NCBI GenBank assembly: GCA_029558735.1
Contig: JAKQDP010000029.1
Span: 1 to 56,568, forward strand
Length of the DNA stretch: 56,568 nucleotides
Reading direction: 5' to 3'
Source of the DNA: a bacterium
GTDB taxonomy: Bacteria > Patescibacteriota > Patescibacteriia > 2-01-FULL-39-33
Below are positions 1,451 to 5,869 of this stretch, in pieces. The notes below the pieces were generated by a model. It was given only the letters and a program-made list of their open reading frames with translations, had not been told where the DNA came from and searched no databases. Made by a program: the position numbers and the translations under genes. The first letter of the stretch is position 1; each line of letters begins with the position of its first letter.

Positions 1451-4180
1451 TTATTTGCTATTTTCAATGATATTAATCTCCTCATCGGTCAGGCCGTAAA
1501 GCTGATAAACTTTTTGGTCAATTTCTTTGTCGGTTTTTTCTATCTCTTTTTTCTTGGCCTCGCATTCTTCCTTATCCAAAACCGGGTCCATTTTTTGAAA
1601 TTCTTTATTCAAGTCAAGCATTCTATCGGCCAGACTAACTAATTCATCATGCTTGGCTTTGTCTTTTTTATTTTTAAAATCTAAATTTGGTATTGGTATA
1701 TTTTCTAACTGATTTATTTTTATATGCAAACCGGCTTGAAAATTAGTTTTAAACCATTTATTAATAAATTTCGAATTTAAAATCGCTAAAACAAATTTCA
1801 AATTATAATTATCTAAACTGTAAATTAAACTTAAAGTATCATTAGTTAAATACCTCTGTTCATCTAAATTGGCAACAATTTCAACAGCAACATCTTTTAT
1901 AATAATTTTATCTCTCAAAAAATATTCTAACTTCCTGGGTCCGGCACCGACTTTTTTCATCATCAAATCTGGGCGATATAAAATCCATTTACCCGCCCAC
2001 TGGTGATTGTATCTTGATACATCCTTACCGCGCAAAAGCTTATAGCAATCATCATTTTCTTTTCTATTTAAAATAAATTTTTTATCATCGCTGGTCTTGA
2101 TGCCTAAAGAAAATTTAGCAATATTGCCAAGATTAACAGTAGGAATATTTATCTTGATCTCCGGATTAAAAGAAAAATTGAAATTGGGCGACTGGATTAT
2201 CCGCTGATAACTCAAATTATAAGGCAATAATTCAAACCCATCTGACTTTAACTCAAATAATTTTATTTTATGGCTCTTACTGGCAGCACCATTTTTCAGA
2301 AAAATTAATACCGGCGTGACAGTAGCGTCCTCAAATACTCCTAATGATAATTTTACCATTTGATAAACAGTAGTGTTATTTACCAAATACTCCCTAAATT
2401 TACTAAAGCTATCTGTCCCCAGCCAGCTATTAGACATAATAAAACCTAAAACTCCGCCATCATTTAACAAACTAATGGCCCGTTCGGTAAAAAAGCTGTA
2501 TAAATCCGACTTATTTTTTGCCGTCTCAAATTCTGATTTTAAATATTCCCGTTCTTCAGCATCCTTAATATTAGCCAAATTGACATACGGCGGATTGCCG
2601 ATGATTACATCAAATCCTCCCTGTTTGAAAGCTTCGGGAAATTTTTCCTGCCAATTAAACGGCTTTTTAGCCGGCCAGTCTTGGCCAAAATACTTTTCCA
2701 GCTCTTTTGGCGTGCCGGAAATCAGGGAATTGCCAACGCAGATATTGCTTTCCAGCTTGGGCAGTTTGCCTTTTTGCCCAACCATCTTCAAAAGCAGATT
2801 CAGGCGGGCGATTTCTACGGCTTCTTCGTCCAAATCAACGCCGTGGATGTTGTTCAATAAAATCCGCATTTTTTCCGGCGCGGACAGTTCCACGCCTTTT
2901 CTTTTTTTGAATTCTTCGGCAATTTTTTGCAACTGCTTAGTCTGGCCGATAGCGGGTTTTCCCAAATTGTGCTTTTGCCAATAATCTAATAAGGCCTGGT
3001 AAGCGGAAATCAAAAATGAGCCGGAGCCGCAGGCCGGGTCCAATATCTTCAGATTTTTTATTTCTTCCGGTTTTTTTTCTTTTAAAATCTCACCCAAAGT
3101 ATGCTGGACAATGTATTCCACAATATAGCGCGGGGTATAATAAATCCCCTGCGATTTTCTTTTGCTCTTTTTGCCCGCTTCAGCGTCCTCTTTCTGGATA
3201 TAGCCCAAATACTGCTCATACATACTGCCGAAAACATCAGAAGGAATATCGGCAAAATTATATCTGATGCCTTTGCCTTTGGTGTGATAAAGCTCGTTGA
3301 TGATTTCCGCCAGCACCTGGTCTTCGGCTTCAATTTTCTCCACCAGATGGTCGCACGGACCCTCTTTGAATAAGCCACTATTGTAATCTCGGTCAATGCG
3401 GCGAAAAATTTTGTTTATATCCAATAAAAGCTGATTATTCTTGCCTTTCTCGCTCCAATCGCGCGCCAAGGGCTGGAGAATCACATCTTCAATGCCTCGG
3501 TCCTCAAGCGTCCGGATAAATATCAACCTGTCCAAAATAGTCTGGACATATTCGGCAATTTTCTTTTCTTCAATTCCACGATTATATACTTTTAAATTGT
3601 CAAACAATGAATTGCGCCATCTGACTAAGTCTTCGGCCAATTGGCGGTCAATGATTTTCTTGGGACGCCGGCCGGCTTTTTCCGCTTCCGCATCCAAAAT
3701 GCCTTTTTCAAAACTTTCCCGAGACAGCCACCACAAGCGCTCGTCAGCCAAATACTGGCTATAAGGAATTTCAATATACTGGCAACTTTGGACATTCGGC
3801 TCATCCCATTCGGTATTATAGATTTTAATCGCCTCGAAATCAGTCAGAATCACCCAGGGGACGGATTTGTGCCAAGAATAGCTGATTGCCTGCTCGGCCC
3901 ATCTTTCTTCGTCTAAATTGACCGAAATCGCTTTAGCTTCAATATAAAATTTAGTTACGCCATTAATCTTAACGGCGTAATCAACCCTCTTTCCCGAAAC
4001 ATCTGTTTCCGGCCAAACATCCTGCTCAAAATCCCAGCCCAAAGCTTCAAAAAGAGGGCGGATAAAATGGTCCTTGGTTTGCTGCTCATTGTATTTTTTC
4101 TTTTCAGAATCTGTTAATTTTTCATAGCGTTCAACCAATTTTCTGATTTTTTCCATAGCTGAAACTTGATTGTTGGGCAT
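1451..4180 (-). CDS. Type IIG-like restriction-modification protein (Eco57I-type N6-adenine methyltransferase with N-terminal nuclease domain)
   Basis: N-terminal DVSGKRVDYAVKINGVTKFYIEAKA (HsdR_N-like PD-(D/E)XK), MTase motif I DPACGSGSFL, motif IV NPPY, C-terminal TaqI-like specificity region. Confidence 0.88.
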   Translation of the reverse strand: MPNNQVSAMEKIRKLVERYEKLTDSEKKKYNEQQTKDHFIRPLFEALGWDFEQDVWPETDVSGKRVDYAVKINGVTKFYIEAKAISVNLDEERWAEQAISYSWHKSVPWVILTDFEAIKIYNTEWDEPNVQSCQYIEIPYSQYLADERLWWLSRESFEKGILDAEAEKAGRRPKKIIDRQLAEDLVRWRNSLFDNLKVYNRGIEEKKIAEYVQTILDRLIFIRTLEDRGIEDVILQPLARDWSEKGKNNQLLLDINKIFRRIDRDYNSGLFKEGPCDHLVEKIEAEDQVLAEIINELYHTKGKGIRYNFADIPSDVFGSMYEQYLGYIQKEDAEAGKKSKRKSQGIYYTPRYIVEYIVQHTLGEILKEKKPEEIKNLKILDPACGSGSFLISAYQALLDYWQKHNLGKPAIGQTKQLQKIAEEFKKRKGVELSAPEKMRILLNNIHGVDLDEEAVEIARLNLLLKMVGQKGKLPKLESNICVGNSLISGTPKELEKYFGQDWPAKKPFNWQEKFPEAFKQGGFDVIIGNPPYVNLANIKDAEEREYLKSEFETAKNKSDLYSFFTERAISLLNDGGVLGFIMSNSWLGTDSFSKFREYLVNNTTVYQMVKLSLGVFEDATVTPVLIFLKNGAASKSHKIKLFELKSDGFELLPYNLSYQRIIQSPNFNFSFNPEIKINIPTVNLGNIAKFSLGIKTSDDKKFILNRKENDDCYKLLRGKDVSRYNHQWAGKWILYRPDLMMKKVGAGPRKLEYFLRDKIIIKDVAVEIVANLDEQRYLTNDTLSLIYSLDNYNLKFVLAILNSKFINKWFKTNFQAGLHIKINQLENIPIPNLDFKNKKDKAKHDELVSLADRMLDLNKEFQKMDPVLDKEECEAKKKEIEKTDKEIDQKVYQLYGLTDEEINIIENSK

Positions 4181-4380: not shown

Positions 4381-5577
4381 TCAATTGTTTTGGATAACGA
4401 ATATCCGGCAATAAGAGACAATCAGCCAAGCGGCGGCGATTAGTGAAGCTGTTCCCAAAATCACCAACCCAGCCGGTAGATCGACCAATCGCAAGAGCAA
4501 TCCGAATAGACCCAGCACAACAAATTCAGCCAAGCCGCGAACTGCCGATTTGATGGAGACTACAGTCGCCCGGTTGCTTGAATCCAGATAACGATGCAGG
4601 AAATGACCCAAAAAGGGATTGCTATACCCGCGAGCCACATTCTGCAAAATAACCAGAAATGCCAATGGCCAAGCAACTAGAAGACCCATTGCTATGATCG
4701 GCAAACTGACTACCGCTAGAATCATCAACACACTGCCAAAGTCGCCAATTTTAGACCATAGCCGGTGGCCTTGATGACTGAAAATAGCCGCCACCAAATT
4801 GAGGCCAAAGAATATCCAGCCATACCAGCTCAAGGGTAGATTGACCAGTTCGAAGTAGGGATTGTAGGTGAAAAACCAGACTTTGGAAATTACCCCCACC
4901 AGAACCGAGAAAGCAATCACCCATTTGACCGGCCGATGGTTGGAGACAAACAGGACGCTTAGCTTCATCAGACGCCAATGGCCGGCGGCGGTGTATTTTT
5001 GCCGACCGGCAAACGGCGGCTCGGCAAAAAAGTAAGTGACCAGACAATTAATGGCGATAAACACCACACCGAGACCTACCGGCAAACGCCAGTTCCAGGA
5101 TGCCATATAGCCGACCAAAGGCGAACAGGCAGCCACTAGTAGCAGCCGGAAAGAAACCGACTGGCCTTCAATCCGCCTGAAATCGTCCTCGCGGTTAAGC
5201 ACCCTTAGACTGTCAAATAGTAGCGAACTGTCAGCCCCCGACACCAAAGACATACCGACCACCCAAATCAGGTTGGCCGACCAGATCATCAGCCGGCTGT
5301 CAGCCAAGGCAAAGACCAGATGCTCGGCGATTATCAGCGCCGAGCCGATAAAGATAGTCCGGCGACGGCCCAAGAGATCGGCTAAGGCGCCGGATGGAAT
5401 CTCCAGCAGCATTATGCCGATCAAGCAAGTCGCCTCCATAATGTAAATTTCCGACAGTGACATCTGGGAGACATGGCGGATATAGCTGATGAGGATCGGT
5501 CCCCAAAACAGCGGTTCCCTTAGCAGCTGAAAAAAATAATACAACACCACATTCCGATTCGCCTGCTTGATGTCCAT
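4381..5577 (-). CDS. MFS transporter
   Basis: Multi-TM with MFS motif GALADLLGRRRTIFIGS. The ORF track start (5661) is probably too far upstream: ATG at 5577 (MDIKQANRN) has a strong SD (AGAGGAGGAAGTGTC-ATG) and the preceding 28 codons overlap an RNA hairpin. Confidence 0.88.
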   Translation of the reverse strand: MDIKQANRNVVLYYFFQLLREPLFWGPILISYIRHVSQMSLSEIYIMEATCLIGIMLLEIPSGALADLLGRRRTIFIGSALIIAEHLVFALADSRLMIWSANLIWVVGMSLVSGADSSLLFDSLRVLNREDDFRRIEGQSVSFRLLLVAACSPLVGYMASWNWRLPVGLGVVFIAINCLVTYFFAEPPFAGRQKYTAAGHWRLMKLSVLFVSNHRPVKWVIAFSVLVGVISKVWFFTYNPYFELVNLPLSWYGWIFFGLNLVAAIFSHQGHRLWSKIGDFGSVLMILAVVSLPIIAMGLLVAWPLAFLVILQNVARGYSNPFLGHFLHRYLDSSNRATVVSIKSAVRGLAEFVVLGLFGLLLRLVDLPAGLVILGTASLIAAAWLIVSYCRIFVIQNN

Positions 5578-5580
5578 GAC

Positions 5581-5676
5581 ACTTCCTCCTCTGTTGGCGG
5601 CGTTTTGGGCGCCGAATTGTAAGGTACTGTCCCGGATTGCCGAAAACAAAAAACTCGGCAATCTGGCCGAGGAAGT
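5581..5676 (-). promoter_or_regulatory. Putative attenuator/translation-control leader of the MFS transporter
   Basis: Minus-strand RNA: terminator hairpin CTCGGC(5671-5666)/GCCGAG(5659-5654)+TTTTTTG; antiterminator GATTGCCGA(5663-5655)/TCGGCAATC(5643-5635) sharing 5655-5659; ACTTCCTC(5676-5669) exactly complementary to the SD region GAGGAAGT(5588-5581). Confidence 0.6.
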
Positions 5677-5703
5677 TTTTAGCTTTAATTCAAATTGAAA
5701 AAA

Positions 5704-5817
5704 TTAAAATTTAAACACTGCCCGGGCCAAATGACAATAACCAAAGATACCGGAAACGGTATCCATCCCGTAATCAGCTTGAGACGCCCAATGCAGTTGT
5801 TTAAATTTTTGTTCCAT
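5704..5817 (-). CDS. Putative 37-aa leader peptide upstream of the MFS transporter
   Basis: ATG at 5817: MEQKFKQLHWASQADYGMDTVSGIFGYCHLARAVFKF*, just downstream of a consensus promoter; below the ORF-track length cutoff. Confidence 0.45.
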   Translation of the reverse strand: MEQKFKQLHWASQADYGMDTVSGIFGYCHLARAVFKF

Positions 5818-5840
5818 AATGATTAATTAATGGTAAATTA

Positions 5841-5869
5841 ATTATACCACAAAAAATAAAACCTGTCAA
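5841..5869 (-). promoter_or_regulatory. Sigma70-type promoter
   Basis: Minus strand TTGACA (5869-5864), 17-nt spacer, TATAAT (5846-5841), with extended -10 TGG. Confidence 0.8.

Follow-up and report, generated by a model that had tools for sequence, protein, structure and literature searches.

The leader preceding an MFS transporter gene in a 56,568-nucleotide stretch of DNA from a very small, uncultured bacterium (the whole of which we call the window; contig C53 of a 991-kb source genome) recurs ahead of pumps and acetyltransferases in many Patescibacteria and has not previously been described. Our main reading, to which we assign a probability of roughly 0.8, is that this leader is a transcription attenuator with an upstream open reading frame (uORF) that responds to stalled ribosomes by inducing resistance-type genes. 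The analysis demonstrated the parts of the leader, their conservation and covariation, a predicted switch and the genes that lie downstream. The named relatives of the source genome are Patescibacteria, the closest of them, in the same family, being 'Candidatus Buchananbacteria'. The features of the element in the window are listed in order of transcription.

5841..5869 (-): promoter TTGACA-17-TATAAT with TG ahead of the -10 box; 12/12 consensus, by far the best score in the region
5704..5817 (-): leader ORF of 37 codons, ATG to TAA, MEQKFKQLHWASQADYGMDTVSGIFGYCHLARAVFKF, without a Shine-Dalgarno (SD) sequence; equivalent in 46/46 homologous units
5793..5808 (-): segment 1, AAATTTAAAC-A-ACTGC, in the 5' half of the ORF, partner of segment 2 (anti-antiterminator 1:2); from swap tests
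5707..5731 (-): segment 2, at the ORF end, TTTGGCC-C-GGG-C-AGT-G-TTTAAATTT, partner of segment 1 or 3; from pairing tests
5662..5680 (-): segment 3, AAAA-ACT-T-CCT-C-GGCCAGA, antiterminator partner of segment 2; from 2:3 covariation
5648..5671 (-): intrinsic terminator (3:4), CTCGGC-cagatt-GCCGAG-TTTTTT; from sequence, 3:4 covariation and presence in 46/46 leader units
5659-5654 (-): segment 4, the terminator 3' arm; from sequence
5635..5643 (-): segment 5, TCGGCAATC, partner of the terminator loop and 3' arm (5663-5655); from sequence, a conserved pairing class
5615..5627 (-): weak boxA-like stretch GTACCTTACAATT between terminator and SD, tentative since this copy is degenerate; motif kept in homologues
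5581..5590 (-): Shine-Dalgarno AGGAGGAAGT of the MFS gene; from sequence
4381..5577 (-): MFS transporter gene, 398 aa, the predicted regulated gene; PF07690, E 4e-10

An earlier note on the window had described a terminator with arms CTCGGC (5671-5666) and GCCGAG (5659-5654) followed by six T residues (5653-5648), a competing 9-bp hairpin between GATTGCCGA (5663-5655) and TCGGCAATC (5643-5635), an anti-SD octamer ACTTCCTC (5676-5669) opposite GAGGAAGT (5588-5581), and a small hairpin CGGCG/CGCCG (5614-5610 with 5602-5598). Read on the minus strand, the terminator is exact, the 9-bp hairpin is perfect, the octamer is fully complementary to its target and the small hairpin is present, all at these coordinates. 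Features beyond that description are the consensus promoter, the leader ORF (5817-5704) and an antiterminator built with the end of the ORF. In the window, this antiterminator pairs TTTGGCC-C-GGG-C-AGT of segment 2 with ACT-T-CCT-C-GGCCAGA of segment 3, and the alternative 1:2 helix pairs AAATTTAAAC-A-ACTGC with GCAGT-GTTTAAATTT. Segment 3 includes both the 5' arm of the terminator and the anti-SD octamer. The MFS gene starts at 5577 with AGGAGG upstream. Folding revealed that the 281-nt leader is more stable than 200/200 dinucleotide shuffles (z -3.5), and a 121-nt portion of it gave z -2.4 against shuffles. Rfam covariance models (riboswitches, T-box and amino-acid leaders) returned no match in the window at the gathering score and nothing meaningful at a permissive threshold, in agreement with the earlier remark that no known family could be recognised.

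Alternating hairpins in homologous leaders

Homologous MFS genes were gathered by protein similarity alone, and the RNA played no part in their selection. A scan of genome contigs with the single MFS protein as query found none; an alignment query gave the homologues. Upstream of these genes we delimited 46 leader units in Patescibacteria, two of which come in tandem from one locus. All 46 hold an ORF and an intrinsic terminator, the ORF being 33-53 codons long (stop counted) and its stop codon lying 21-59 nt from the terminator. The open frame across the leader is frame 0 in 46/46, as against +1 in one and +2 in two. One homologue (L052) fits the RNA model, yet has no recognisable ATG leader ORF. 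At the tandem locus (L011:1057-1480), two full leader units with two ORFs and two terminators precede one MFS gene in an arrangement resembling a double gate.

A strong promoter was found at the equivalent position in most homologous loci. The leader ORF is without an SD in 45/46 units of this first set and in 35/36 of the independent set described below. For 13 of the 37 promoters scored in the first set, the distance from the -10 box to the ATG is exactly 6 nt, where transcription should be expected to start; in the window the distance is 23 nt. Since the ATG often lies 6 nt from the -10 box and an SD is missing, the sensor ORF is probably leaderless in many of these loci.

The pairings were analysed by a swap test across the 46 units, in which a segment was matched either to its native partner or to partners exchanged between loci (5000 permutations). 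Native partners paired better for 1:2 (z -14.4), 2:3 (z -12.0), 3:4 (z -16.1) and the terminator loop with segment 5 (3:5, z -7.1), with 0/5000 permutations as good in each case. The control pairings 1:3, 1:4, 1:5 and 2:5 stayed at |z|<2, which makes relatedness or composition an unlikely source of the native signal. Across the 38 loci of alignment A2, pairing in the 2:3 helix reaches 87.4%, falling to 35-48% when the strands are slid, with two-sided changes at 14/16 pairs; the 3:4 helix is 94.7% paired, with two-sided compensatory changes at 5/7 pairs. An independent set of 36 loci found by covariance search, none of them from the MFS clade used initially, gave z -11.3 for 1:2, -13.5 for 3:4 and -8.7 for 3:5, and its controls were null. 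The 2:3 pairing was also strong in this set, a result biased by the inclusion of 2:3 in the search model. RNAalifold on the leader alignment recovered the terminator alone because the alternative helices are mutually exclusive. Lack of covariation at orthologous loci had been named in the earlier note as grounds for dropping its attenuator ahead of the MFS gene; the paired segments covary strongly across loci, which supports that proposal.

Covarying alternative helices are also typical of riboswitches, and the RNA pairing is under more constraint than the peptide. Both observations would suit a metabolite- or protein-binding leader in which the ORF is incidental, and the earlier note had compared the region with riboswitch expression platforms. 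Against such an RNA acting alone, each of the 46 units has an ATG-started frame that spans segments 1 and 2 and stops 21-59 nt short of the terminator. Moreover, what is conserved in the leader is the set of mutually pairing segments; the alignment shows no additional conserved aptamer core, and Rfam gave no match. We therefore consider a riboswitch-like leader very unlikely. Antiterminator and terminator are mutually exclusive and the antiterminator overlaps the end of the ORF, as in the uORF attenuator class, and it is as a leader-peptide/uORF transcription attenuator that we interpret the element.

Predicted response to ribosome position

In the proposed mechanism, RNA polymerase would start near 5834, as the promoter sequence suggests, and a ribosome would load onto the SD-less leader ORF. 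A ribosome that reaches the stop codon would cover segment 2; the 3:4 terminator would then fold, keeping the MFS gene off. Without ribosome loading, 1:2 would form and leave segment 3 free for the terminator, and the gene would again be off. A stall at about codons 3-25 would mask segment 1, allowing 2:3 to form; the terminator would then be blocked and the MFS gene transcribed. The upstream ORF and the RNA switch thereby probably turn the pump on upon ribosome stalling. We infer the co-transcriptional order of these steps, the stalling itself, the inducer and the role in resistance.

The switch was simulated by removing the RNA up to the leading edge of the ribosome, placed by its P-site codon, and folding the remainder. 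For the window, the simulated probability of the terminator was 0.99 without a ribosome and 0.98 with the ribosome at codons 1-2, dropped to 0.00-0.13 at codons 3-25, and returned to 0.98 or more for positions between codon 26 and the stop. Only 1/200 codon-shuffled window ORFs gave the same switching. Across loci, a full switch was predicted in 25/46 as against 0-1/46 after codon shuffling. The other 21/46 lack a full switch in the equilibrium fold, mostly since the long terminator stem wins, which counts against the model; there the antiterminator would have to fold ahead of the terminator as the RNA is made.

Selection on the leader peptide is weakly purifying (pN/pS 0.5-0.8 in close pairs), the middle of the ORF shows no extra constraint, and the 46 leaders show no clear enrichment for any amino acid. 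A specific arrest peptide, considered as a candidate, was not supported by these values. The same features bear on an amino-acid attenuator of the trp type, in which ribosomes would stall at the codons of a scarce amino acid that the MFS protein imports. The 1:2 / 2:3 / 3:4 logic is identical, Patescibacteria are amino-acid auxotrophs, and many leaders carry a Trp codon near codon 8-19 (Trp is present in 33/46 leaders vs 24 expected). However, no leader has a run of a single amino acid, 13/46 are without any Trp, and simulated stalls at any of codons 3-25 should suffice; the GNAT acetyltransferases and ABC exporter found behind other copies do not suit the uptake of a single amino acid either. 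We regard this alternative as unlikely. Weak peptide conservation and the lack of clear amino-acid enrichment leave both a specific starvation signal and an arrest peptide unsupported. Instead, three observations suggest impaired translation as the signal, most likely caused by ribosome-targeting antibiotics: the predicted stall window is broad, the peptide is weakly conserved, and the leader recurs before MFS, GNAT and ABC genes. We therefore take the leader to be a probable sensor of translation stress or antibiotics that controls resistance-type genes.

Genes behind the leader and known systems

The nearest solved structures to the MFS protein of the window are the NorA and EfpA exporters, at weak similarity. 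Covariance models of the leader were run on three genome sets, drawn from the phylum (about 380), the class to which the window belongs (381) and another class (384). The search was not restricted by gene, and the resulting counts are lower bounds, 8 candidates per genome having been scored. Matches stood ahead of at least about 19 more MFS exporters, which form a separate clade and weakly resemble Tet(40)/TetA(P); at least 17 PF13302-type GNAT acetyltransferases, weakly similar to AAC(6') and spermidine acetyltransferases; and at least one ABC exporter. All NCBIfam resemblances of downstream proteins fell far under the curated cut-offs. The leader also stands ahead of at least one Ocnus/PHPT (Ocnus/Janus-type) protein with no obvious resistance role (L178:1401-2100). 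About 10 weak matches precede unassigned ORFs, and matches that were weak or had no clear downstream gene were left uncounted (L126, L127, L133, L134, L147, L151, L152, L155, L181, L186). Putative exporters and drug-type acetyltransferases are the targets that would be expected of an antibiotic-inducible leader.

Within the same genome, no other copy of the leader was found by DNA similarity, and model R3 gave no second match in the window. The sole other pattern match in that genome was a terminator-like hairpin, CTCGGC...GCCGAG-ATTTT (G000:C69:36504-36532). The commonest terminator sequence had no match in viral contigs, and a plasmid tblastn search returned nothing but distant MFS proteins. 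Directly downstream of the MFS gene in the window lies an Eco57I-type restriction-modification methylase with a TaqI-like specificity domain (1451-4180, minus strand).

Several known systems resemble this arrangement. In the whiB7/wblC leaders of Actinobacteria (Lee et al. 2022, reviewed in PMC11550727), translation of a uORF favours a Rho-independent terminator, and its disturbance by many antibiotics leads to the antiterminator and drives antibiotic resistance (PMC11550727). The likeness lies in uORF-based terminator/antiterminator attenuation, which is predicted here. Unlike whiB7/wblC, which controls a transcription factor and through it a regulon, the patescibacterial leader directly precedes exporters and acetyltransferases; no WhiB-type protein was found downstream of it, the genes being MFS, GNAT, ABC exporter and Ocnus. 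The conditional terminator of Listeria rli53-lmo0919, found by Term-seq, likewise combines a uORF-containing leader, a terminator/antiterminator and a drug-resistance/efflux gene (PMC11550727), and the downstream genes here are of similar resistance/efflux type. It differs in being lincomycin-specific, from Firmicutes and at a single gene; no Rfam family matched the leader here. The toiL uORF of E. coli topAI is multipurpose, stalls at many positions freeing a structure, and long pairing across its ORF has been given as the reason for its sensing of many ribosome-targeting drugs (PMC12121999). The wide stall window simulated here is comparable, whereas toiL represses translation, acts through Rho, has no intrinsic terminator and serves a toxin-antitoxin target. 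In trp/ilv-type leader-peptide attenuators, such as the ilvB1 uORF, ribosome position sets termination (PMC13236596). Alternating hairpins and a decision by ribosome position are shared with these, whereas the patescibacterial leader has no regulatory codon run and its downstream genes are not biosynthetic. The leaderless poly-cysteine uORF attenuators of mycobacteria are reportedly cysteine-responsive (Canestrari 2020). Many patescibacterial loci, with an ATG 6 nt after the -10 box, may resemble them in having a leaderless sensor ORF; unlike them, our leaders carry no cysteine codon runs. The element is probably a new family that would work much as whiB7/wblC and rli53 do; none of the Rfam families matched it.

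Gene regulation in Patescibacteria is almost unstudied, and we found no description of such an element in the literature on riboswitches, leader peptides and leaderless ORFs in this phylum. Patescibacteria hold many divergent 'resistance-like' genes (PMC8651080). A recognisable inducible leader offers a means of telling which of these genes truly respond to drugs, and would be a ready-made broad sensor. Its presence suggests that host-attached Patescibacteria cells encounter ribosome-targeting compounds.

Between the terminator and the MFS gene

The 9-bp hairpin that the earlier note had viewed as competing with the terminator is formed in the window by segment 5 with the terminator loop and 3' arm. 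It belongs to a conserved class of terminator:post-terminator pairings. Because segment 5 is transcribed after the U-tract, it cannot serve as an antiterminator; in the conserved antiterminator, 5731-5707 at the end of the leader ORF pairs with 5676-5662. A boxA-like motif, GTTCTTTRACAA, lies between terminator and SD at 31/46 homologous loci vs 2.9 in shuffles. Stretches resembling it occur in rRNA leaders from several of these genomes, and it could recruit Nus factors. At some loci (e.g. L041, L046, L049, L072), GTTCTTTRACAA closely precedes the SD of a gene that is not ribosomal. More tentatively, and at somewhat short of even odds, we suggest a phylum-wide cis-regulator in Patescibacteria: a broad-window, often leaderless uORF attenuator through which the members of a distributed resistome (exporters of the MFS and ABC types, GNAT acetyltransferases) would share one sensor of translation stress, and to which segment 5 and the boxA-like site would add a control step absent from known attenuators.

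The anti-SD octamer at 5676-5669 raised the alternative, also put forward in the earlier note, of an erm-type translational attenuator that masks the MFS SD until a stalled ribosome releases it. The exact 8-bp pairing is included in the predicted fold of the window and was attained by only 10/5000 shuffles, and a 12-bp match occurs at L049. Across loci, however, conserved sequestration of the SD was not observed (z -1.7; p<0.05 in only 3/46 loci), and the octamer lies within segment 3, where it is engaged in 2:3 or 3:4 and may simply reflect the CU-rich make-up of that segment. With its pairing unconserved and specific to the window, this translational layer would be at most a local addition to the transcription attenuator, and as an explanation of the leader it is quite unlikely. 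The match at L049 is a 12-nt exact complement between the pre-terminator stretch (around ATTCTCCTTAG) and the SD region; it is the only strong anti-SD besides that of the window, a weaker one being found in L056. Insertions extend the distance from terminator to MFS start to 150-245 nt at three loci (L071, L068 and L005), and an insertion at L005 carries CTGTCTAGCC, which is perfectly complementary over 10 nt to the 5' arm and loop of the terminator.
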